In this document: positions 3,648 through 32,139 of the stretch, piece after piece
How positions within the stretch are numbered: position 1 is the stretch's first letter
Layout of the letters: every line of letters begins with the position of its first letter
Assembly: GCA_001768615.1 (NCBI GenBank)
Contig: MELE01000095.1
Location: 1 to 32,139 of the forward strand
Source: Acidobacteria bacterium RIFCSPLOWO2_12_FULL_67_14b
GTDB taxonomy: Bacteria > Acidobacteriota > Vicinamibacteria > Vicinamibacterales > UBA2999
DNA length: 32,139 bases
Direction: 5' to 3'
Position numbers and translations under genes: made by a program
The notes under the pieces: generated by a model
Seen by the model: the letters and a program-made list of their open reading frames with translations, nothing else
What the model was told of the DNA's origin: nothing
The model's database searches: none

Positions 3648-5267
3648 TTACCACGCCGGTCCGCCCATCTTCACTTTCAGCTTCAGCGCGTCTTCCGACG
3701 TGGGATCCAGGGCCAGGGCACGGTCGATTTCGGCCCGCGCCGCCGCGGCATCCTGGACGTTCAAGTACGCCTCGGCGAGGGCGATGTGGGCCGCCACGGT
3801 CTCTTCGCTCCAGAGGGCGATCTTGAGGGCTTCAACCGCATCGACCGATCGGCCGCCGCGCAGGTACAAGCGGCCGAGCAGCAAGTGGGCCTCGGCCAGG
3901 TACGGCGACAGGTAGAGCGCGCGGCGGATCTCCTGGATGGCCTCGCGATCTGCTTCCCGCTGAAAGGCCCGCCGACCTGCGTCGAGGTGAAAGGCGGCCA
4001 GCAAATCCTGATCGCGCTGCCCGGCGGTGGTGATGATGGTGTCCACCCGGGTGGGTGCCGGTGTCAGCTCTTCGTCGAGTCGTTCGAGGCCCCGCGGCAC
4101 GGGATCGGCGCTTGCCGCCTTGGACTCCCACGACGCGTACTTCGTCGAGAGGCGCAGCGCGAGCTCGCGCTCCCGCGCCGCTTCGGCCGTGGCGCCGGTG
4201 TGGTGCAGGGCGACGGAGAGGATGTAATGCGCATCACCATCGCCGGGATCGCGCCGGACGGCCTCGCGGAGCCAGTAGATGGCTGCGCGCGGGTCCTTGT
4301 CCAGCCAGTATGCGTACCCCAGATTGAAGAAGAGATTGCCATCAGCCGGGTTCAACTCGGTCGCCTGGCTGAAGTAGTAAGTGGCCCGGCCCGGCTGGTG
4401 GGCCGTCGACTTGCGCAGCTCGGTGACGCCAATCGCGTTGGCGACGGCTGCGGACCGCTCTTCCGCCTGCAGCGCGCGAAGCGTCACCAACGCGTCGTCG
4501 AAGCGATGGAGGCTCAGCTGCGAGAGCGCACGGCGGAACCGGCCTTCCCGCGACAGACGGCTCTCGGGGCGGATCGCCGACACCACGTCGAGGGCACGCT
4601 GGTGGTCGGAGGCGTCGGTGTGAATTTCCCAGATCGCCAGGCGGGCCCGATCGAACTGGGGCGCGGCCTTGAGCGTCTGCTCGAGAAACGACAGCGCGGT
4701 CGCCGGGGTTTCGGCCACCAGGCCCTTCACGTATAACTCGAACACCTGGGGCGACGGCGGCAGCCGATCCGACGCGCTCACCACGGCTCCGGTTCCGCGC
4801 AGTTGCTGAGCCAGACGTCCGAAGACCGCGAAGACGTCGGCCAGCGGGCCGCTCGCGTCGACCTCAGGAAGCAGCCGCCCCGTGTCGAGCCGTACGAGCC
4901 GCGCGCGGGCGACGAGTTGATCGGCCCTCAGTTCCACGCTGCCCAACACCACGACGGTCGCGCCCACGGCGTGCCCCACCTTGATCGACGACGCGCGGCT
5001 GAGCAACGCGGCGGCCGGCAGTTGCAGGCGATCGAACGCCTGCAGCCGATCCTCGCGATCCACCGTAAGCTCGCCGCTCGCCGACAGCAGGTCGGTCAGC
5101 AGCACGGCCGCGCCTTCACGCATCCAGGCCAGCCTGGGTTCCTGGCCGATATTGTCGAACGGGAGCACGATCACCAGAGCGCCCGCAGGGACCTGGGCGG
5201 AGGCGTGGCTCGGCGATATCAGGGAGCCCAGGACCGCGCACGCCAAGGCCCAGCGCATCCGGATCAT
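3648..5267 (-). CDS. Secreted TPR-repeat protein with N-terminal FlgO/TolB-like domain
   Basis: The ATG at 5267 overlaps the upstream stop as ATGA, suggesting coupled translation and giving 539 residues; a second ATG lies three codons in. An N-terminal signal peptide (MRWALACAVLGSLISPSHASA) is followed by a domain of about 130 residues (ALVIVLPFDNIGQEPRLAWM...) of the FlgO/TolB-N-like type found before TPR arrays. Tetratricopeptide repeats cover most of the rest, for example FFNLGYAYWLDKDPRAAIYW and LAEAHLLLGRLYLRGG. Such proteins act as periplasmic or outer-membrane scaffolds. No catalytic motif is visible and the partner is unknown. The operon context (SPOR, lnt) suggests an envelope role. 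Confidence 0.75.
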   Translation of the reverse strand: MIRMRWALACAVLGSLISPSHASAQVPAGALVIVLPFDNIGQEPRLAWMREGAAVLLTDLLSASGELTVDREDRLQAFDRLQLPAAALLSRASSIKVGHAVGATVVVLGSVELRADQLVARARLVRLDTGRLLPEVDASGPLADVFAVFGRLAQQLRGTGAVVSASDRLPPSPQVFELYVKGLVAETPATALSFLEQTLKAAPQFDRARLAIWEIHTDASDHQRALDVVSAIRPESRLSREGRFRRALSQLSLHRFDDALVTLRALQAEERSAAVANAIGVTELRKSTAHQPGRATYYFSQATELNPADGNLFFNLGYAYWLDKDPRAAIYWLREAVRRDPGDGDAHYILSVALHHTGATAEAARERELALRLSTKYASWESKAASADPVPRGLERLDEELTPAPTRVDTIITTAGQRDQDLLAAFHLDAGRRAFQREADREAIQEIRRALYLSPYLAEAHLLLGRLYLRGGRSVDAVEALKIALWSEETVAAHIALAEAYLNVQDAAAARAEIDRALALDPTSEDALKLKVKMGGPAW

Positions 5268-5857
5268 CTGGGGTCGATGGCTCCCTCGTGACGCGCGCCG
5301 CGAACGGTGACGGCGAGGCTCCATCCCGCTTCGTCTTCGTGGGCGACGCCGACCTCCGCGTCGACGGCACAGAGGGCCATCAGGCGCTGCAGGGCCGCGG
5401 CATAGAATCCGCGCATGGGCACCGAGGCGGGGGCGCGCAGTTGTTCGAACAGGGCCGAGTGGATCTCGACGACGGCCCCGCCGTCGCGCATCCGGGTCTT
5501 CACTTTCGAGCGGCGGACGGTCGCCACGACGAGCTTCTTGCCGAGCGCCAGCGCGGCCCGCGCGCGCATGCCCGTGGGCAGCCGCCGGATCCACCACCGG
5601 CGCAGCGCCGAGGTTTCCTGGAAGGTCCAATCCGCGGCGCAGGTGCCGGCCCGGGTGGCGATCTCGTCGTTGGCGGGCGGCTCTTCGCGGTGGAGAAAAC
5701 TCAACACCGCGCCCAGCGGGGCCAGGCCGATGCGCCCGTCGCGCATGCCGGTGGGACTGAGCCAGTTCTCGTAGAACTCAAGCCGTGTGGGGGAAACGTC
5801 GGCAATGCCCTGATGCAGGCTCGAGATGAGCAACCGACCGATTCCGGCGTCAGCCAT
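5264..5857 (-). CDS. Unknown 197-aa protein, first gene of the envelope operon
   Basis: The frame starts at ATG 5857 (MADAGIGRLLISSLHQGIAD) and ends in TGA overlapping the next ATG. It contains a conserved-looking block (TRLEFYENWLSP), a basic central part (RRWWIRRLPTGMRARAALALG, SKVKTRMRDG) and a C-terminal alpha/beta stretch (FYAAALQRLMALCAVDAEVGV). There is no signal peptide, no transmembrane helix and no recognised catalytic motif. The C-terminal pattern is loosely like the small-molecule-binding V4R/heme-NO-binding fold, but this is a guess. It is divergent from argS, with a plausible promoter in between. Confidence 0.65.
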   Translation of the reverse strand: MADAGIGRLLISSLHQGIADVSPTRLEFYENWLSPTGMRDGRIGLAPLGAVLSFLHREEPPANDEIATRAGTCAADWTFQETSALRRWWIRRLPTGMRARAALALGKKLVVATVRRSKVKTRMRDGGAVVEIHSALFEQLRAPASVPMRGFYAAALQRLMALCAVDAEVGVAHEDEAGWSLAVTVRGARHEGAIDPR

Positions 5858-12300: not shown

Positions 12301-13167
12301 TCAGGCCGGCCTGCCCTGAGCGGAGTCGAAGGGTGCGAGCTCGAAACTCAAGTCTGCCGCCGGCGCGGAGTGCGTCAGCGCGCCCACCGACACGTACTGC
12401 GCGCCGGTCGTGGCCAGCTCGGGAATGCGCTCGAGGGTCACGCCGCCGGAGATCTCGATCGCGGCGCGGCCCGCCACCCGCGCGACCGCCTCGCGAATGT
12501 CGTGGGTCGTGAAGTTGTCGAGCAGGATCCGCGGCACGCCCGCGTCGAGCGCCTGGTCGAGCTCGTCCGGCGTCTCGACTTCGACCTCCACGGGGAGGCC
12601 TTGCGCGGCCGCCATCGCGCGGGCGGCGGCGGCGCGCACGCCACCCGCCAGCCGCTTGTGGTTGTCCTTGATCAGGATGCCGTCATCCAGCCCTTGGCGA
12701 TGGTTGGTACCGCCGCCGCAGAGGACGGCGTACTTCTCGAGCGCGCGGAGGCCGGGCGTGGTCTTGCGCGTATCCAGGATGGTGATGCGGCCGGCGGCGG
12801 CGTCCACGAACTTCGCCGTCAGCGTGGCGATGCCGCAGAGGCGCTGGAGGAAATTGAGGGCCGTGCGTTCCGCGGCCAGCAGCGCCCGCGCGTCGCCCGC
12901 CACGACGGCCACCGCCTCGCCCGCCTGCACGTGGGAGCCGTCGCCCCATCGCACTTCGAACACCACCGCGGGATCCGATTGCCGGAAGACCTCGGCGGCG
13001 ACGTCGAGTCCCGCCACCACCAGATCCGACTTGGCGAGCACGGTGCCCCGCGCCCGCTGCCCGGCCGCGATCGTCGCGGCGCTGGTGGCATCGCCGCGCC
13101 CCCAATCCTCGGCGAGCGCGCCGCGGGCCAGATCGCGATAGGCCTCCGGCGGCAACACCGGCACCAT
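12301..13167 (-). CDS. nadC: Nicotinate-nucleotide pyrophosphorylase (carboxylating)
   Basis: NadC converts quinolinate and PRPP to nicotinate mononucleotide in de novo NAD synthesis. The start is ATG 13167 (MVPVLPPEAYRDLARGALAE), overlapping the valS stop by one base (TGATG). Motifs are EDWGRGDATS, AERTALNFLQRLCGIAT, ILDTRKTTPGLRALEKYAV, GGGTNHRQGL, IKDNH and EISGGV, with the expected Arg/His/Lys phosphoribosyl and quinolinate contacts. It has 288 residues. After the normal end (GALTHSAPAADLSFEL) comes an extra tail, APFDSAQGRPA, encoded by a dispersed repeat. No nadA or nadB is in view. Confidence 0.94.
   Translation of the reverse strand: MVPVLPPEAYRDLARGALAEDWGRGDATSAATIAAGQRARGTVLAKSDLVVAGLDVAAEVFRQSDPAVVFEVRWGDGSHVQAGEAVAVVAGDARALLAAERTALNFLQRLCGIATLTAKFVDAAAGRITILDTRKTTPGLRALEKYAVLCGGGTNHRQGLDDGILIKDNHKRLAGGVRAAAARAMAAAQGLPVEVEVETPDELDQALDAGVPRILLDNFTTHDIREAVARVAGRAAIEISGGVTLERIPELATTGAQYVSVGALTHSAPAADLSFELAPFDSAQGRPA
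12314..12333. repeat. Dispersed CCTGAGCGGAGTCGAAGG-type repeat in the nadC 3' end
   Basis: The 20-nt string CCCTGAGCGGAGTCGAAGGG matches a repeat type familiar from many environmental bacterial genomes. Read on the - strand it encodes PFDSAQG, part of the NadC tail. Only one arm is present here. Identification rests on recall of the motif, not on a search. Confidence 0.6.
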
Positions 13168-15716
13168 CAGGCCTCCGCGGGCTTGAGGGTGATCCGCACG
13201 CCCGCGTCGTCCCCGGCCTCGAGCACCAGCGAGTCCGCGCGGCATGCCGCCTTCAAGTCGCGCTCGACCAGGGCCAAGCTCTGCACCGCGTCGGCGGAGG
13301 CGGAATACACCACGGCCTTCACCGGCGTGCCGACCGACACTCTCTGATCGGTCTTGCCCTTGCGGATGGCATTGAGGGCCTCGGTCAGGTGCAGCACGGC
13401 CTGTCGCGCGGTCTCATCCTCGCCCGAGACCTTGACCACCTCCGCGCGAACCGGCCACGCGGCGCGATGCACCGAGCCCTGGCGCCACCACGACCAGACC
13501 TCGTCACACACGAACGCCAGGTACGGCGCCAGAAACCGCAGTAACACCGACAGGGCCAGGCGCATTGCCGTCGACGCCGACGACGCCGCCTCGGGACCGA
13601 AGTCTCCATAGCGGCGCGACTTCGCCGCCTCGACGTAGTTATCGCAGAAGTCCCAGAAGAACGACTCGATCTTGGCGAGCGCCTTCGCATACTCGTACCG
13701 ATCGAGCTCCGCCGTCGCTTCGTCCACGAGGTCCGCCAGGTTCAGCAGCATGCCGCGGTCGAGCGGCTCGGTCACCGCGCCGTCGGCGTGCTCGCCCGCC
13801 AGCACGAACTTCGAGACATTCAGGACCTTCATGGCGAGCTTGCGGCCGATCTTCATCTGGCCCACGTCGAACGCCGTATCCACGCCGGGCCCGCCGCGCG
13901 CCGCCCAGTAGCGGACGCCGTCGGATCCGTATTCCTGCAGCAGGCCGAGCGGCGTCACGACGTTGCCCTTCGACTTCGACATCTTCTTGCGATCGGGATC
14001 GAGCACCCAGCCGGAGATCGCGGCCTCGGTCCACGGCACCGACCCGTGCTCGAAATGCGCGCGCACGACTGACGAAAACAGCCACGTCCGGATGATGTCG
14101 TGCGCCTGCGGCCGCAGATCCATCGGAAAGGTGCGCGTGAAGATCTCGGCGTCGGTTTCCCACTGCGTGACCAGTTGCGGCGACACCGACGACGTCGCCC
14201 ACGTGTCCATCACGTCCGGGTCGCCGGCGAACCCTCCGGCCTGTCCGCGCTCGGCGGGCGTGAACCCGTCGGGCACGTCGGTGGACGGATCGATCGGCAG
14301 GCGCGACTCGTCGGGAACGATCGGGTGGTCGTAGTCCGCCGTTCCGTCCGCGCGAATCGGATGCCACACCGGAACGGGCACGCCAAAGAAGCGCTGGCGG
14401 CTGATGCACCAGTCGCCGTTGAGGCCGTTGACCCAGTTCTCGTAGCGCGCCCGCATGTACTCCGGGTGCCACTGGATCTCCCGCCCGCGCGCGATGAACG
14501 CCTCCCGATGGTCCATGGTCCTGATGAACCACTGGCGGCTGGTGACGATTTCGAGCGGGCGGTCGCCCTTCTCGTAGAACTTCACGTTGTGGGTGATTGG
14601 CGTCGGCTCGCCCTCCAGATCTCCGCTCTCACGCAGCAGCTCGACGATCCTGGCCTGCGCCTTCTTGGCCGACAGCCCGGCCAGCTGATCGTAGGCGCGC
14701 TGCGCCCGGGCCGCGTCGCCGGACTCCCATCCCCTGGCGCCCCACGTCACCGGCCCCAACGTGCCGTTGGGCTGGACGATGGCGCGCACCGGCAGTTTCA
14801 ACTCGCGCCACCAGGTGACGTCGGTCGTGTCGCCGAACGTGCAGATCATCGCGATGCCACTGCCCTTTTCGGGATCGGCCAGCGCGTGGGCCTTCACCGG
14901 CACGCGGACGCCGAAGAGCGGCGTGACGACCTCGGTGCCGAAGAGCGGCTGGTAACGCCGGTCATCCGGATGCGCCACCAGCGCCACGCACGCGGGGATC
15001 AACTCCGGACGCGTGGTCTCGATCGCGACCGCGGCGGATCCATCGGGCCGGGCGAAATGAATCTTGTGATACGCGCCGGGCTGCTCGCGGTCTTCGAGCT
15101 CCGCCTGGGCCACGGCCGTACGGAAATCGACATCCCACAGCGTCGGCGCTTCGACCTGGTAAGCGAGGCCCTGCTTCAGGTGGCGCAGGAACATGGTCTG
15201 CGACACGCGCTGCGCCTGGCGCCCGATGGTCGCGTAGGTCATCGACCAGTCCACCGACAGCCCGAGGTACCGCCACAGCTGCTCGAAGGCTTTTTCGTCT
15301 TCGACGGTGAGCTTGATGCACAACTCGATGAAGTTGGGCCGCGACACCGACACGGGGTGCTTGTCCGGCTTCTCCGGCGGCTCGAACGACGGGTCGTAGG
15401 GCAGCGACGGGTCGCACCGCACGCCGAAGTAGTTCTGCACGCGCCGCTCCGTGGGCAGGCCGTTGTCGTCCCATCCCATCGGATAGAAGACCTCCTTGCC
15501 GCGCATGCGCTGGAAGCGCGCGACGATGTCGGTGTGGGTGTAGGAAAAAACGTGCCCGACGTGCAGCGAGCCGCTGACGGTCGGCGGCGGCGTGTCGATG
15601 GAATAGATCTGGCGGCGTGACTTCGTGCGGTCGAAGCGATAGATGCCGTCACGCTCCCAGCGCGCGGCGAGCGCGTCTTCCAGGCCTTCGAGCGCGGGCT
15701 TTTCCGGGACGGACAT
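13167..15716 (-). CDS. valS: Valyl-tRNA synthetase
   Basis: ValRS charges tRNA-Val and hydrolyses mischarged Thr-tRNA-Val. The HIGH motif appears as SGSLHVGHVFSYTHTDIVAR, followed by FYPMGWDDNGLPTERRVQN. The CP1 editing domain contains IETTRPELIPACVALVAHPD and GSGIAMICTFGDTTDVTWW, the variant found in actinobacterial-type ValRS. KMSKS is DRKKMSKSKGNVV. The anticodon-binding domain and a short C-terminal part follow; at 849 aa it is on the short side, with no long C-terminal coiled coil evident. The ATG at 15716 has GAGAG a few bases upstream. A 22-bp-stem hairpin lies just upstream. Confidence 0.96.
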   Translation of the reverse strand: MSVPEKPALEGLEDALAARWERDGIYRFDRTKSRRQIYSIDTPPPTVSGSLHVGHVFSYTHTDIVARFQRMRGKEVFYPMGWDDNGLPTERRVQNYFGVRCDPSLPYDPSFEPPEKPDKHPVSVSRPNFIELCIKLTVEDEKAFEQLWRYLGLSVDWSMTYATIGRQAQRVSQTMFLRHLKQGLAYQVEAPTLWDVDFRTAVAQAELEDREQPGAYHKIHFARPDGSAAVAIETTRPELIPACVALVAHPDDRRYQPLFGTEVVTPLFGVRVPVKAHALADPEKGSGIAMICTFGDTTDVTWWRELKLPVRAIVQPNGTLGPVTWGARGWESGDAARAQRAYDQLAGLSAKKAQARIVELLRESGDLEGEPTPITHNVKFYEKGDRPLEIVTSRQWFIRTMDHREAFIARGREIQWHPEYMRARYENWVNGLNGDWCISRQRFFGVPVPVWHPIRADGTADYDHPIVPDESRLPIDPSTDVPDGFTPAERGQAGGFAGDPDVMDTWATSSVSPQLVTQWETDAEIFTRTFPMDLRPQAHDIIRTWLFSSVVRAHFEHGSVPWTEAAISGWVLDPDRKKMSKSKGNVVTPLGLLQEYGSDGVRYWAARGGPGVDTAFDVGQMKIGRKLAMKVLNVSKFVLAGEHADGAVTEPLDRGMLLNLADLVDEATAELDRYEYAKALAKIESFFWDFCDNYVEAAKSRRYGDFGPEAASSASTAMRLALSVLLRFLAPYLAFVCDEVWSWWRQGSVHRAAWPVRAEVVKVSGEDETARQAVLHLTEALNAIRKGKTDQRVSVGTPVKAVVYSASADAVQSLALVERDLKAACRADSLVLEAGDDAGVRITLKPAEA

Positions 15717-15736
15717 ATCTCTCTATTATGAAAGGC

Positions 15737-15799
15737 ACAAGGCAGAAGGCAGAAGGCAAAAACAAGGGCCAACCTTCTGCCTTCTGCCTTCTGCCTTGT
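15737..15799. repeat. Perfect inverted repeat built from AAGGCAG units
   Basis: Arms 15737-15758 and 15778-15799 are perfect 22-nt reverse complements, each made of tandem 7-bp AAGGCAG units; the loop is 19 nt. It lies between the pseudo-receiver gene and valS on the same strand. The right arm touches the TAA of the former. There is no T-tract, so it may act as a processing or attenuation hairpin. Its origin looks like tandem growth within an inverted repeat. Confidence 0.85.
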
Positions 15800-17319
15800 T
15801 ACTGAGTATCCCGTTCGGCCTGGGCCTTCACGCGCGCGATCTCGTCGCGCAGCAATCGCTCGGAGGTCTCGGAGACGACCGAGCGGACGGTGTCGCGGAC
15901 CGTGTCGTGCACGGTCGTCGTCATGGCCTCGCGCAGGTGATCCGCAAACATCCCGGCGTTGAGGCGTTCGACCACGCGCTCGGCGATCTGGTCGAGCATG
16001 ACGTCGGTGATCTCCGGCTGGATCACCACCGGGGGCGGGGGCTCGGGGACCGCGGCCCTCGGTGGATGCGATCGCTCGCCCTGCTCGAACGCCAGGAGAT
16101 CGGCAAAGTCGTCCGCCACATCTCGTTGGGCCGACGAGGGCGCGTTCGGCGGCGGCGGACCGGGAGCCGGAGGCGGCGCGGGCACCGCCACAAACGGCGC
16201 GACCTCCACGGGCGCGACTTCCAGGGCCGGGATCTCCTCGAGCGCGACCTCCACGGGTGCGACCTCTACGGGCGCGACCTCGACGGGCGTGACCTCCACG
16301 GGTGCGACCTCCACGGGCGCGACCTCTACAGGCGCGACCTCTACAGGCGCCGGCGGCGAATCGAAAACCGGCACAGGTGGCGGCGGTGGCGTGGGCGGAG
16401 CGGCCGGCGCGGCGGTATTCACGGCTTCGGGCGTCTCGGGCAGCTCGACGTCGTGGATCCCCATCTCGGCGGCGAGCGTCTGCTGCTCGAGGCGGCGTTC
16501 TTCCCTGATCTTGTCCTCGTCGGCAAACCACTCGTCGTCGATTTCGAAGACCGGCGATGCCGGGGGCGTGCCGGCGGCCGGCGGCTGCGGACGTCTGCCC
16601 GGCGACCGCGGATCGACCGCGGTACCATGATGCTCGAGCGGCGGCGCGGGGTTCCGCCCCTGCCGTTCCTCGCCGCGGCCCGCCAGATGCTGATCCAGCG
16701 AATCAAACGCCGCATCCAGCGTGTCGAGGTAGTCGTGGCTTCCGTGCCCGCTTTCCACGGACCTCGCGTCCGGCGCGAGGCCCGAATCTTCCTTGAGCTC
16801 GTCCCAGCTCGACGCCTTGGCGGCGCGCACCGGCCGCGGGCTCTGCGGGCGGACCTGCGCCGAGGGCGGCGCCTCGCGCTGCCCCTGCTTCCGCTTCTCC
16901 GGCGGCGCCGAGGCAGGGGTCACCGTCCGCCCGGCCGCGGGACGCGCTTCACTCTTGATGCCGAGCAGCTCTTTGACGCGGCTAATCACGATCGTCGGCT
17001 CTAATGGTTTCTCGAGTACTCCGCTGGCGCCGCTGGCCTTGAGCTGCGCCGGATCCACCGATTCAAACGCGCCCGACAGCAACAGCACGGGCAGGTTCTT
17101 CAACGCCGGCTGGCTTCGCACGAAGCTCGCCACTTCGTACCCGTTCACGTTCGGCATCGTCGTGCCAGCCAGGACGATGTCGGGCCGCTGCGAGCTGATG
17201 CGCTCAATCGCCGCCTGCCCGTCCGACACCGTGACGATCCGGAAGGCCTCCTCGGCGAAGGTCAGCGCGATCACCCGCTGGACCGTGATGCTGTCGTCGG
17301 CGAGCAGCAGTGTTCGCAT
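15799..17319 (-). CDS. Receiver-like protein without phospho-acceptor, with APVEV repeats
   Basis: The N-terminal ~125 residues have a CheY-like receiver fold: acidic pair in LLLADDSITVQRV, LLLSGAF at the Thr/Ser position and the conserved Lys in VLEKPLEP. The expected phospho-acceptor Asp is Gly (DIVLAGTTMPNVNG). A long Pro/Ala/Glu-rich region follows, including about ten 5-residue units (APVEV; 16199-16348), then a helical C-terminal block (MLDQIAERVVERLNAGMFAD). Total 506 aa. It may be a phosphorylation-independent scaffold, for example in gliding, polarity or chemosensory systems, but no partner is nearby. Start ATG 17319; a 51-bp gap separates it from the mutase subunit gene. Confidence 0.75.
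   Translation of the reverse strand: MRTLLLADDSITVQRVIALTFAEEAFRIVTVSDGQAAIERISSQRPDIVLAGTTMPNVNGYEVASFVRSQPALKNLPVLLLSGAFESVDPAQLKASGASGVLEKPLEPTIVISRVKELLGIKSEARPAAGRTVTPASAPPEKRKQGQREAPPSAQVRPQSPRPVRAAKASSWDELKEDSGLAPDARSVESGHGSHDYLDTLDAAFDSLDQHLAGRGEERQGRNPAPPLEHHGTAVDPRSPGRRPQPPAAGTPPASPVFEIDDEWFADEDKIREERRLEQQTLAAEMGIHDVELPETPEAVNTAAPAAPPTPPPPPVPVFDSPPAPVEVAPVEVAPVEVAPVEVTPVEVAPVEVAPVEVALEEIPALEVAPVEVAPFVAVPAPPPAPGPPPPNAPSSAQRDVADDFADLLAFEQGERSHPPRAAVPEPPPPVVIQPEITDVMLDQIAERVVERLNAGMFADHLREAMTTTVHDTVRDTVRSVVSETSERLLRDEIARVKAQAERDTQ
16199..16348. repeat. Coding minisatellite, ten 15-bp units
   Basis: Ten contiguous 15-bp units (consensus GCGACCTCCACGGGC on the + strand) lie in frame in the pseudo-receiver gene and encode V-A-P-V-E type pentapeptides. 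Units 4-10 are near-identical; units 2 and 3 are diverged. Because units are multiples of three, copy-number change would lengthen or shorten the linker without breaking the frame. Confidence 0.9.
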
Positions 17320-17370: not shown

Positions 17371-17780
17371 TCAGACCGGCTCCACCCGGACGCGGGCGTT
17401 GGCCGTGATGTAGTCGATGATGTGCTGCATCGGGGTGCCCGGCAGGAACACGCCGCGAATGCCCATCGCATTCAGCTTCGGCAGGTCCACGTCGGGGATG
17501 ATGCCCCCAATCACGACCTGGACATCGTCCAGGCCCTTCTCCTTCAACAGGGTCATGACCCGCGGGCAGATGTGCATGTGTGCGCCCGACAGGATCGACA
17601 GCCCGATGACGTCGGCGTCTTCCTGCAGCGCCGCGGACACGATCTGCTCGGGGGTCTGGCGGAGGCCCGTGTAGATCACCTCCATGCCGGCATCGCGCAG
17701 CGCGCGCGCGATCACCTTCGCGCCACGGTCGTGGCCGTCGAGTCCCGGCTTGGCGATGACGACTCGGATCTTCTGGCTCA

Positions 17781-17781
<1 letters not shown>
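17371..17781 (-). CDS. B12-binding small subunit of acyl-CoA mutase (IcmB/McmA2-like)
   Basis: This 136-aa protein is a stand-alone cobalamin-binding domain. It has the base-off/His-on signature: [10 protein letters not shown] (DxHxxG), [10 protein letters not shown] (SxL) and VVIGGIIPD (GG). It starts at ATG 17781, overlapping the stop of the large subunit by one base, so the two are made together. The length equals that known for IcmB of streptomycete isobutyryl-CoA mutase. With its partner it should form the adenosylcobalamin-dependent carbon-skeleton rearranging enzyme. Confidence 0.93.
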
Positions 17782-19460
<1,679 letters not shown>

Positions 19461-22940: not shown

Positions 22941-24107
22941 ATGAGTCAGACCATCGCCGCCGCCCCCGCGCTGACACGGCTGGCCGAAGACGAGGCCCTG
23001 TTCCGCGACAGCGTCTACGAGTTTGCCGACCGCGAAGTGCGGCCGATCACCCGCGAGATGGACGAGCACGCCAAGATGTCGCCCGGCTTGATCACGAAGC
23101 TCTTCGAGCTGGGCGTGATGAGCGTCGAGATTCCCGAAAGCTACGGCGGCGCCGGCGGCACGTTCTTCCACTCGGTGCTGGCGGTGGAGTCGCTGTCGCG
23201 GGTCGACCCCTCGGTCGGCGTGCTGGTGGACGTGCAGAACACGCTCGTGATCAACGCGCTGCTGCGCTGGGGCAGCGACGAGATCAAGCGGCGCTACCTG
23301 CCGAGGATGGCGAAGAACCTGATCGGCGCCTACTGCCTGTCGGAGGCCGGCTCGGGCAGCGACGCCTTCGCGCTGGCCACCCGCGCGGCCGAGACCGGCG
23401 ACGGTTACGCGCTCACCGGCCGCAAGCTGTGGATCACCAACGGCAACGAAGCCGACCTCTTCATCGTCTTCGCCAACATCAATCCCGAGGCGGGCTACCG
23501 CGGCATCACCGCGTTCCTGGTCGAGCGCGGCATGGCCGGGTTCACGGTGGGCCAGAAGGAAGACAAGCTCGGCATCCGCGCCAGCAGCACCTGCGAGCTG
23601 CTGTTCGAAGACTGCGTGGTGCCGAAGTCGCAGATTCTCGGCGAGGTCGGCAAGGGCTACAAGGTCGCCATCGAGACGCTCAACGAGGGCCGCATCGGCA
23701 TCGGCGCCCAGATGCTGGGGCTCGCGCAGGGCGCGCTCGATCACACCGTGAAGTACATCAAGGAGCGCAAGCAGTTCGGCAAGCCCCTCGCCGATTTCCA
23801 AGGCGTGCAGTTCCAGCTCGCGCGCATGGCGCTCGACGTCGAGGCGACGCGGCTGCTCGTCTACAACTGCGCGCGCCTGCGCGATGCCGGCCTCCCCTTC
23901 CTGACCGAGGCGGCCATGTGCAAGGTCTACTCGTCGGAGGTGGCCGAGCGCGTGGCGTCGATGGCCATCAACCTGTATGGCGGCTACGGCTTCGTGAAGG
24001 ACTACCCGGTCGAGAAGTTGTACCGGGACGCGAAGATCGGGCAGATCTACGAAGGCACGACCAACATGCAGCTGATGACGATCGCCAAACAAGTACTAGG
24101 TGCTTAG
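22941..24107 (+). CDS. Acyl-CoA dehydrogenase (short/branched-chain type)
   Basis: This 388-aa FAD flavoprotein introduces an alpha-beta double bond into acyl-CoA and passes electrons to ETF. The N-terminal helical domain, middle beta domain (YCLSEAGSGSDAFALATRA, LWITNGNEADLFIVFA) and C-terminal helical domain (ERKQFGKPLADFQGVQFQLA, GGYGFVKDYPVEKLYRDAKI) are complete. The catalytic Glu lies in QIYEGTTNMQL. The start is ATG 22941 (MSQTIAAAPALTRLAEDEAL); the frame stays open far upstream but that part is antisense to the VWFA gene. The last residues (LGA) and TAG are encoded by the AGGTGCTT repeat. Substrate is probably a short or branched acyl-CoA, consistent with the nearby mutase. Confidence 0.94.
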   Translation: MSQTIAAAPALTRLAEDEALFRDSVYEFADREVRPITREMDEHAKMSPGLITKLFELGVMSVEIPESYGGAGGTFFHSVLAVESLSRVDPSVGVLVDVQNTLVINALLRWGSDEIKRRYLPRMAKNLIGAYCLSEAGSGSDAFALATRAAETGDGYALTGRKLWITNGNEADLFIVFANINPEAGYRGITAFLVERGMAGFTVGQKEDKLGIRASSTCELLFEDCVVPKSQILGEVGKGYKVAIETLNEGRIGIGAQMLGLAQGALDHTVKYIKERKQFGKPLADFQGVQFQLARMALDVEATRLLVYNCARLRDAGLPFLTEAAMCKVYSSEVAERVASMAINLYGGYGFVKDYPVEKLYRDAKIGQIYEGTTNMQLMTIAKQVLGA

Positions 24108-24248
24108 GTGCTTGGGTGCTTGGGTGCTTGGGTGCAGCACCTGAGCACCTCAGCACCTCAGCACTTCAGCACCTCAGGGTGCAGCACCTGAGCACCTGAG
24201 CACCTGAGCACCTGAGCACCTGAGCACCTCAGCACTTCAGCACCTCAG
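24098..24248. repeat. Tandem/inverted AGGTGCTT - GAGCACCT array
   Basis: The left part (24098-24134) has five AGGTGCTT-like units. The right part has two runs of the inverted 8-bp unit (GAGCACCT / CAGCACCT), one from 24135 and a very regular one from 24183, separated by GGTGC at 24178-24182. It can fold into one or two hairpins around GGTGCAGCACC. It fills the gap between two convergent genes and supplies both stops: TAG of the acyl-CoA dehydrogenase (24105-24107) and TGA of the opposite gene (24247-24245). It belongs to the same family as 11453-11530. Confidence 0.85.
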
Positions 24249-24970
24249 GGGAGTATCACCTGAAGCGTCCGGGCGTCGCGGGCGAGGCGCTCGAGCAGGC
24301 CGCCGCGGGCGTAGCCGTCGGGGCCTTCGACGCGGATGGCCGCGTGCACGGCCTTCTCCGCCGCCGCCGCCGACAACGACCGGGCCAGGCGGATCGCCGT
24401 TTCATAGTCGTCGTCCCGCTCCACCGTTTGCGCGGCCTGCAGCGTGAGCAGCCGCGCGGCGTAGAGTTCCGCGGCCGCGTCGGCGAGGGCCCAGTGCGGC
24501 ACCTTCTCGTCGCCCCCGGGGCGGAGCCCGGTGCGTTTCATGGCGGCCACCGCATGGGCGACCGCAGACCGCCCGACGCCGAGCGCCACGGCGCAGCACA
24601 CCAGGCGCGCGCGCATCAGGGTGGAGCCGGTGGCGCGCTGCACCGACGCCAGCGCGAACTCGGCCCCCCGCAGGCCCGGCAGCGACGGCGGAATCACGGT
24701 GCCCGCGGCGCCCGAACCCGCGGCCGAGCCGAAGCCGATCGACGCCGCCAACCCCGCGCTCGCCGACGCCAGCTCCTCGATGATCAGCACCGCCGCCATC
24801 TCGGCGCCCGCAAACGGATCCGCGAGCGCCTCGGCGATCAGCGCCTGGGTGACCTCCTCGGGAATGCGGCCCGTCTTGTCGATGGCCGCCGCCACGCTCC
24901 GGGCGGCCCGCGTCACGCCGCGCGCGCGATCGACGATGGCCTGCTGGTCGGGGGTGAGGTCGAAGGTCAT
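24245..24970 (-). CDS. Acyl-CoA-dehydrogenase-like protein lacking the middle domain
   Basis: This 241-aa protein starts like an acyl-CoA dehydrogenase (FDLTPDQQAIVDRARGVTRA; LIIEELASASAGLAASIGFG, residues 1-85). It then passes directly to a C-terminal helical domain (FALASVQRATGSTLMRARLV; PHWALADAAAELYAARLLTL; GLLERLARDARTLQVIL). The middle beta-barrel of about 110 residues is absent, as are the R..FG FAD contact and the IYEGT catalytic Glu, where the protein ends in VILP. It is thus unlikely to be an active dehydrogenase; it may be a structural partner subunit or a decaying paralogue. The open frame and normal codon use argue that it is expressed. Start ATG 24970. The TGA comes from the adjacent repeat. 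Confidence 0.7.
   Translation of the reverse strand: MTFDLTPDQQAIVDRARGVTRAARSVAAAIDKTGRIPEEVTQALIAEALADPFAGAEMAAVLIIEELASASAGLAASIGFGSAAGSGAAGTVIPPSLPGLRGAEFALASVQRATGSTLMRARLVCCAVALGVGRSAVAHAVAAMKRTGLRPGGDEKVPHWALADAAAELYAARLLTLQAAQTVERDDDYETAIRLARSLSAAAAEKAVHAAIRVEGPDGYARGGLLERLARDARTLQVILP

Positions 24971-28646: not shown

Positions 28647-32139
<3,493 letters not shown>

Follow-up and report, generated by a model that had tools for sequence, protein, structure and literature searches.

A protein of 506 residues encoded in the window (the whole stretch of 32,139 nucleotides analysed here, one contig of a 5.3 Mb draft assembly of 258 contigs) is probably a scaffold of the RomR type that has outlived its GTPase module and that, in the genus of the source genome, works independently of phosphorylation; RomR was compared by its published description. 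The protein would follow the plan of RomR-type scaffolds, with an N-terminal receiver, a Pro-rich and probably disordered linker that carries short motifs, and a probably helical C-terminal block. The source genome belongs to the Acidobacteriota and probably to the order Vicinamibacterales, the order referred to throughout. In the mechanism proposed, the C-terminal block would, like RomR-C in Myxococcus xanthus, form oligomers and anchor the protein to a cell structure, and partners would dock on the receiver face and the linker motifs whatever the phosphorylation state. The receiver may do so in one fixed state, an arrangement for which the pseudo-receiver and coiled coil of FrzS provide a precedent in the accessible part of PMC11580455, and, its GTPase partners being gone, the protein would have been retained for another, permanently-on adaptor role. 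A sequence-only reading of the same DNA had already suggested a constitutive adaptor, and an adaptor or scaffold is still the best reading, the loss of the acceptor being fixed in the genus; that reading had left out the RomR-type family, the conserved gene order, the conserved linker motifs and the missing partners, all of which are treated below.

The gene, its neighbourhood and its probable RomR-type family

Response_reg is the sole Pfam family of the 506-residue protein at an E value of 0.01, and covers residues 5-115 (E 2e-16). The C-terminal block, which comprises the last 71 residues and is probably helical as judged from the letters, had been called distinct in the sequence-only reading, a description that holds in that no convincing match was obtained in Pfam or NCBIfam (best member E 0.0022 and 0.00094, unrelated families). 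Scattered weak matches of C-terminal members in the two libraries also fell in unrelated families, and were taken as chance. Since the block has no Pfam or NCBIfam family, such libraries show these proteins only as response regulators. Among solved structures, the one match to the C-terminal profile of the order was a fimbrial fusion (E 9.8e-5), whose three stretches each stand at E 40 and which was put down to chance; the profile made from outside the order reached a best E of only 0.02. A likeness to PopZ (PF10691, DUF2497) presumably lies in a C-terminal VREEIERI-type helix within a disordered polar scaffold; 21 genomes, including that of the window, gave no PF10691 match, and the Caulobacter control was found, on which account PopZ was rejected. 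In the copy of G007, a genome of the window's genus (L074:7169-9724, minus strand), which encodes a protein of 852 residues, the C-terminal block is expanded to approximately 22 head-to-tail units of 16 residues of the ETSERLIRDxVxxVVP type, with 22 SER triplets at a spacing of 16 (once 24), 18 of which fit a stricter pattern.

Table 1. Positions of the gene, its parts and its neighbours in the window
Feature	Position	Strand	Basis or remark
RomR-type protein (probable) with pseudo-receiver	15799..17319	minus	506 aa, ATG start; ORF list, Pfam, orthologues
Receiver (REC) domain, aa 1-122	16954..17319	minus	Pfam PF00072 and alignment
Acidic pair D8 D9, kept	17293..17298	minus	Alignment of orthologues
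Gly52 (codon GGC), phospho-acceptor position	17164..17166	minus	Orthologue alignment and codons
Ser82, conserved Thr/Ser position	17074..17076	minus	Orthologue alignment
Lys104, kept	17008..17010	minus	Orthologue alignment
Linker motif DYLDTLDAAFDSLDQ, aa 196-210	16690..16734	minus	Common to part of the order's orthologues
Linker motif FEIDDEWFADEDK, aa 258-270	16510..16548	minus	Seen only in the window's genus
APVEV array, 11 five-residue steps from aa 324	16186..16350	minus	TRF array 16196-16350, 15-bp unit
Linker motif VADDFADLLAFEQGE, aa 401-415	16075..16119	minus	Common to part of the orthologues
C-terminal block, aa 436-506	15802..16014	minus	Homologous to RomR-C-like block, without Trp/Pro signature
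B12-binding subunit, methylmalonyl-CoA mutase	17371..17868	minus	Conserved upstream neighbour, 51 bp gap; internal start likely
Methylmalonyl-CoA mutase large subunit	17781..19460	minus	Pfam; conserved neighbour
valS, valyl-tRNA synthetase	13167..15716	minus	Name inferred; Pfam gives class I synthetase, I/L/M/V group; downstream, 82 bp gap

The position of the gene between the mutase genes (mcm) and valS is widely kept. Among 20 regions chosen from other members of the order, all 20 contain both the gene and the mutase large subunit, 19 the B12-binding subunit and 18 valS, with three of the valS matches at only 28% identity; of the two regions without valS, one is on a contig that stops just past the gene, and in the other about 1 kb of contig remains. 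Outside the order, 11 regions were compared: the mcm-gene-valS arrangement is complete in four (L253, L254, L257, L262), valS alone follows in two (L259 and L258, the gene position in the latter being taken from a separate family search), the mutase alone precedes in one (L261), and neither neighbour is seen in four. Two genomes of the same class, G121 and G263, combine the complete arrangement with the Trp discussed below, a roadblock protein and MglA.

Farther downstream in the window, on the same strand, Pfam identifies quinolinate phosphoribosyltransferase, biotin-protein ligase and type III pantothenate kinase. The only histidine kinase among the 26 ORFs of the window scanned with Pfam is a hybrid located about 11 kb from the gene (28647-32129, minus strand), composed of two-component propeller repeats, Y_Y_Y, PAS, HisKA, HATPase and receiver domains. 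At about 10 kb from the gene lies an ORF of 660 residues rich in TPR repeats (3651-5630, minus strand); SgmX, the partner of FrzS, is also a TPR protein. The spacer between the gene and valS (15732-15799) carries a 25-nt inverted repeat of AGAAGGC-type heptamers, 96% complementary and with a 13-nt spacer of its own. Other short-unit tandem arrays in the window, at 177-235 and 24099-24248 (14-bp ATCTGCAATCTGAG; 8-bp GGTGCTTG and CAGCACCT), are possibly elements of the same kind, and the stretch 24080-24260 holds no inverted repeat.

RomR is described, in the accessible text of PMC3441718, as a receiver followed by an unstructured Pro-rich linker, whose length and composition differ between lineages, and by an alpha-helical, Glu-rich C-terminus with an invariant Trp and Pro, and is stated there to co-occur with MglA/MglB. 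In M. xanthus, RomR-C is reported as needed and sufficient for the formation of oligomers, as setting the polar position at least partly, and as binding MglC (PMC10329633, in excerpt), a binding that requires W394 (PMC12719032, in excerpt). Outside the order examined here, the C-terminal block of the receiver family usually reads IAWEV-(I/V)-P-(D/E)-LAE, with the Trp present in 44 of 54 complete ORFs and absent in 10; the cut ORFs L127, L132 and L134 are omitted from this count, and L222, whose Trp lies outside the block, is counted as lacking it and was left out of the outside C-terminal alignment. The matching position is without Trp in all 94 complete ORFs of the order (in three of them, by eye, a Trp lies elsewhere in the last 50 residues), and the block of the window protein has neither the Trp nor the Pro of the signature. 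Profiles of the blocks from within and outside the order match with 98.8% probability (E 1.3e-16, 62 columns), and this match, together with the shared mcm-gene-valS order, identifies the gene as the orthologue of the RomR-like acidobacterial proteins. Given the homology of the block to its Trp/Pro counterpart, the functions likeliest to survive are oligomerisation and tethering. The suggested identity with RomR draws on architecture, on the published signature and on co-occurrence, M. xanthus RomR being set beside these proteins by description. A contig search yielded 41 loci, one of which, L031, is apparently the contig G001:C71 itself; the remaining 40, at 20-36% identity, were treated as generic receivers and not considered further.

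The phospho-acceptor position and constraint on the receiver

The sequence-only reading had noted that the acidic pair and the Lys are kept while the acceptor Asp is replaced by Gly, and the alignment agrees at all four positions (D8, D9, K104 and G52). Of 33 orthologues, 25 have Asp, seven Gly and one Ser at position 52, every non-Asp case coming from the window's genus. The order-wide set of 114 copies (one per genome, complete or longest, except for second copies in G040 and G411) gives 106 Asp, seven Gly and one Ser, with Asp in 106 of the 106 copies beyond the genus, and Asp also occupies the position outside the order in all 37 aligned rows and in 20 of 20 further sequences read by eye (57/57). 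Nine genomes of the genus were examined; the gene is present in eight, and all eight copies are non-Asp (seven Gly, one Ser), a divergent second copy in G004 (G004:C4; L099/L103) being kept out of this count. In that paralogue (L103, a frame of 553 residues), Ser occupies the acceptor position and His replaces Lys104, which makes it another pseudo-receiver, degenerated further than the first.

Six genomes encode the Gly as GGC and one (G008) as GGA, and the Ser codon, AGC, is one step from GGC; the change from Asp, from GAC or GAT to GGC, involves one or two bases. In a receiver tree of 129 rows, from which one row of the order shorter than 110 residues was omitted and in which 16 of the 37 outside rows were used, the non-Asp rows form a single clade (support 99/87), and they still fall in one group when the acceptor column is masked (support 59 by a quicker method, G012 omitted). 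The change is fixed in the genus. An error of sequencing or assembly at codon 52 would find its ground in the draft state of the window's assembly (258 contigs), and the sequence-only reading had itself named, as a case against its own proposal, Asp in orthologues together with an erroneous Gly. Asp orthologues do exist, but Gly is carried by seven concordant genomes, through two different codons, and for this reason Gly52 is not an error; the seven genomes have already refuted such an explanation, whose chance is negligible. Phosphorylation of an Asp at position 52 is impossible, as had been claimed for ordinary phosphorylation; that the receiver functions without it is suggested by the chemistry and by purifying selection.

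Substitution patterns indicate that the Gly receiver is under purifying selection. Its pN/pS within the genus ranges from 0.11 to 0.56 with a mean of 0.37 (8 sequences, 28 pairs), close to the mean of 0.42 for the receivers of Asp orthologues (12 of 25 orthologues, 66 pairs), which suggests that the Gly receiver is constrained much like the Asp receiver; elsewhere in the genus protein, the values are 0.29 for the C-terminal block and 0.49 for the linker. At matched divergence (pN 0.06-0.14), pairs from the genus lie at 0.11-0.39 (11 pairs) and those of Asp orthologues at 0.19-0.29 (at least 11 pairs), ranges that make a slight relaxation in some genus pairs possible.

The values of those genus pairs, slightly above Asp pairs at like divergence, would also suit a gene in decay, in which the disappearance of the MglA module relaxed selection and the loss of the Asp, the linker repeats and the deletions are steps toward loss. 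Deletions do occur among members of the genus. In G003, whose genome is reported as 100% complete, a remnant between the mutase and valS (L102:5740-5925) joins receiver residues ~3-31 in-frame to the last ~20 residues, with no ATG, GTG or TTG in the codons inspected ahead of the receiver-like part, and in G002 the protein is down to 249 residues, most of the linker having been lost. Of the order's 162 genomes, 118 have a match to the receiver family, as do 78 of the 100 of good quality, and the other 44 (22 of good quality) have none; together with the remnant and the shortened linker, these genomes indicate that the gene is dispensable in places. Decay would be in keeping, moreover, with the state of the catalytic positions other than the acceptor, at least one of which is gone in 15 of 16 other copies of the window's GTDB family; a loss of this kind affects 9 of 90 copies in the remainder of the order and 14 of 37 outside it. 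In all three groups the Thr/Ser position is the one most often lost, and among the copies examined the Asp itself is absent only from those of the genus. On the other hand, the receiver pN/pS of the genus is on average not above that of Asp orthologues and that of the C-terminal block is low, the frame is open in eight of nine genus members as far as the contigs reach, K104 is kept in all 33 aligned orthologues, and the Gly codon itself has undergone a synonymous change (GGA in G008). Decay of the gene in the genus is held to be rather unlikely. In four copies, L129 (G014), L207 (G012), L026 (G024) and L206 (G351), the second residue of the acidic pair is gone (E-P or D-A) and Asp52 is kept.

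The receiver could also continue to switch, either through another phosphorylated residue, with Thr53 as the candidate, or through the binding of a ligand or protein. In 8 of 8 genus copies the residue right after the acceptor is Thr, and other modes of regulation of pseudo-receivers are discussed in the accessible part of PMC12632262. However, 23 of the order's 106 copies with Asp have Thr53 as well (31 of 114 overall), so that it is not a new acceptor, and the aromatic residue of Y-T coupling, found at K-3 in most receivers according to the same excerpt, is Val in 104 of 114 copies of the order. A surviving switch of this kind is considered improbable, and a phosphorylation-independent docking fold is preferred.

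The linker and its APVEV array

The linker contains approximately 20% Pro and is probably disordered. Three short motifs within it (Table 1) are candidate docking sites. A DYFDRLDAAF-like pattern is found in 36 of 94 complete ORFs of the order versus none of 34 outside it, and a FAALLAxE-like pattern in 49 of the 94, while a FEVDDDWF-like motif is found in seven of eight genus copies (twice in five) and in none of the 106 other copies of the order, some of which are cut.

The 15-bp tandem array (10.3 copies, 82% matches, TRF score 198) is read in the protein as seven contiguous A/T-P-V-E-V units followed by degenerate ones. Compared with GCG CCC GTG GAG GTC, the seven clean units show eight synonymous departures and one non-synonymous one (counted by eye), and, these being mostly synonymous, the units are not fresh identical slippage copies. 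Other genus members that were read do not carry the array, the linker of G005 being cut by a contig end, and the array-free protein of G001, at 495 residues, is similar in length to the window protein (506). The sequence-only reading had described ten 15-bp units, variable in number and growing; the array itself is there, in 10.3 copies, but its growth finds no support in diverged units seen in one genome, and the idea that the array tunes the length of the adaptor is not supported, given the G001 protein. An array that is in frame, at 15 bp and 10.3 copies, would have the form expected of a phase-variable length tuner, but it is seen in the window's genome alone, its units have diverged mainly synonymously and genus mates are similarly long without it, which leaves such a role very improbable. 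The array may be better regarded as a spacer-like elaboration of the linker.

Missing GTPase partners and comparison with known systems

Roadblock proteins (PF03259) were detected in 179 of the 297 genomes that sample the phylum, and with the same query in 0 of 162 genomes of the order. MglA behaves alike: a query with L252, which lies beside a roadblock gene in G162, found it in 207 of the 297 phylum genomes and in none of the 162 of the order. Among the 131 genomes outside the order that have the receiver family (E 1e-32), MglA is present in 127 and both MglA and roadblock in 121. The Trp of the C-terminal block also shows a suggestive association with roadblock proteins outside the order, being present in 41 and absent in 6 genomes with roadblock, and present in 3 and absent in 4 without it (Fisher p 0.017), in a sample that was not random, as a second batch of 20 genomes was picked partly for absent partners or low scores; the tracking is imperfect. 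That MglC binding requires W394 accords with the disappearance of the Trp in an order without roadblock proteins.

Partial losses have been seen before. The accessible text of a 2012 survey (PMC3441718) mentions five genomes whose RomR is without receiver or RomR-C and in which the MglA/MglB system is not complete and, as a separate matter, two RomR sequences from Acidobacteria that lack RomR-C. The present case extends this kind of pattern to a whole order, in which the block is retained but altered. Literature searches located nothing on RomR together with Acidobacteriota or on Vicinamibacter together with MglA, and the titles and abstract beginnings of the matches on RomR with MglA loss do not report the present case. 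PilT-family proteins occur in 147 of 162 genomes of the order, and the receiver family is still found in eight of the 15 genomes without PilT; with PilT this frequent, co-occurrence within the order is uninformative as to a link with type IV pili.

A broader history can be sketched tentatively. The whole order might have lost the Ras-like polarity GTPase module, MglA with roadblock proteins, and kept the RomR scaffold, which would have shed the surface of Trp and Pro to which MglC binds in M. xanthus and gained docking motifs in the linker (D-x-(D/E)-WF, seen in the genus only), with one genus discarding phosphorylation. The losses would then be ordered, the GTPase module and the Trp/Pro surface going order-wide and the phospho-acceptor afterwards in one genus. 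If true, the order would possess a hub for polarity or scaffolding that operates without a GTPase, perhaps in connection with type IV pili. In published descriptions RomR forms the base of the polarity network of Myxococcus, and the order keeps the scaffold where partners of the MglA, MglB and MglC type were not found. The coexistence of Asp and Gly orthologues makes it possible to test whether the receiver acts as a phospho-switch or simply provides a docking fold.

The closest known system is RomR (M. xanthus MXAN_4461; Bdellovibrio Bd2761), which has in common with the window protein the plan of receiver, Pro-rich linker and C-terminal block, and whose Trp/Pro signature and co-occurrence with MglA and roadblock proteins are shared by the orthologues outside the order. 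The window protein differs from it in having Gly in place of Asp and a C-terminal block without Trp and Pro, and in belonging to an order in which neither MglA nor roadblock proteins were found. In the excerpts of PMC3441718 and PMC6428892, the D53N variant of M. xanthus RomR still supports motility and the Bdellovibrio D55A variant is viable. FrzS of M. xanthus, a pseudo-receiver with a long C-terminal coiled coil, resembles the window protein in its manner of working only: its receiver is described as binding SgmX and its coiled coil as giving the polar position (PMC11580455, in part), and, on comparison by description, it is taken as a different family because the orthologues studied here have a RomR-like C-terminus. 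Finally, the window receiver falls within the bacterial pseudo-receivers, defined by the lack of at least one of DD/D/T/K and estimated at about 6% of bacterial receivers in the accessible part of PMC12632262, in that it likewise has no acceptor Asp; what sets it apart is that DD, Thr/Ser and Lys are kept, and that close orthologues bearing the Asp place the loss in a single genus.
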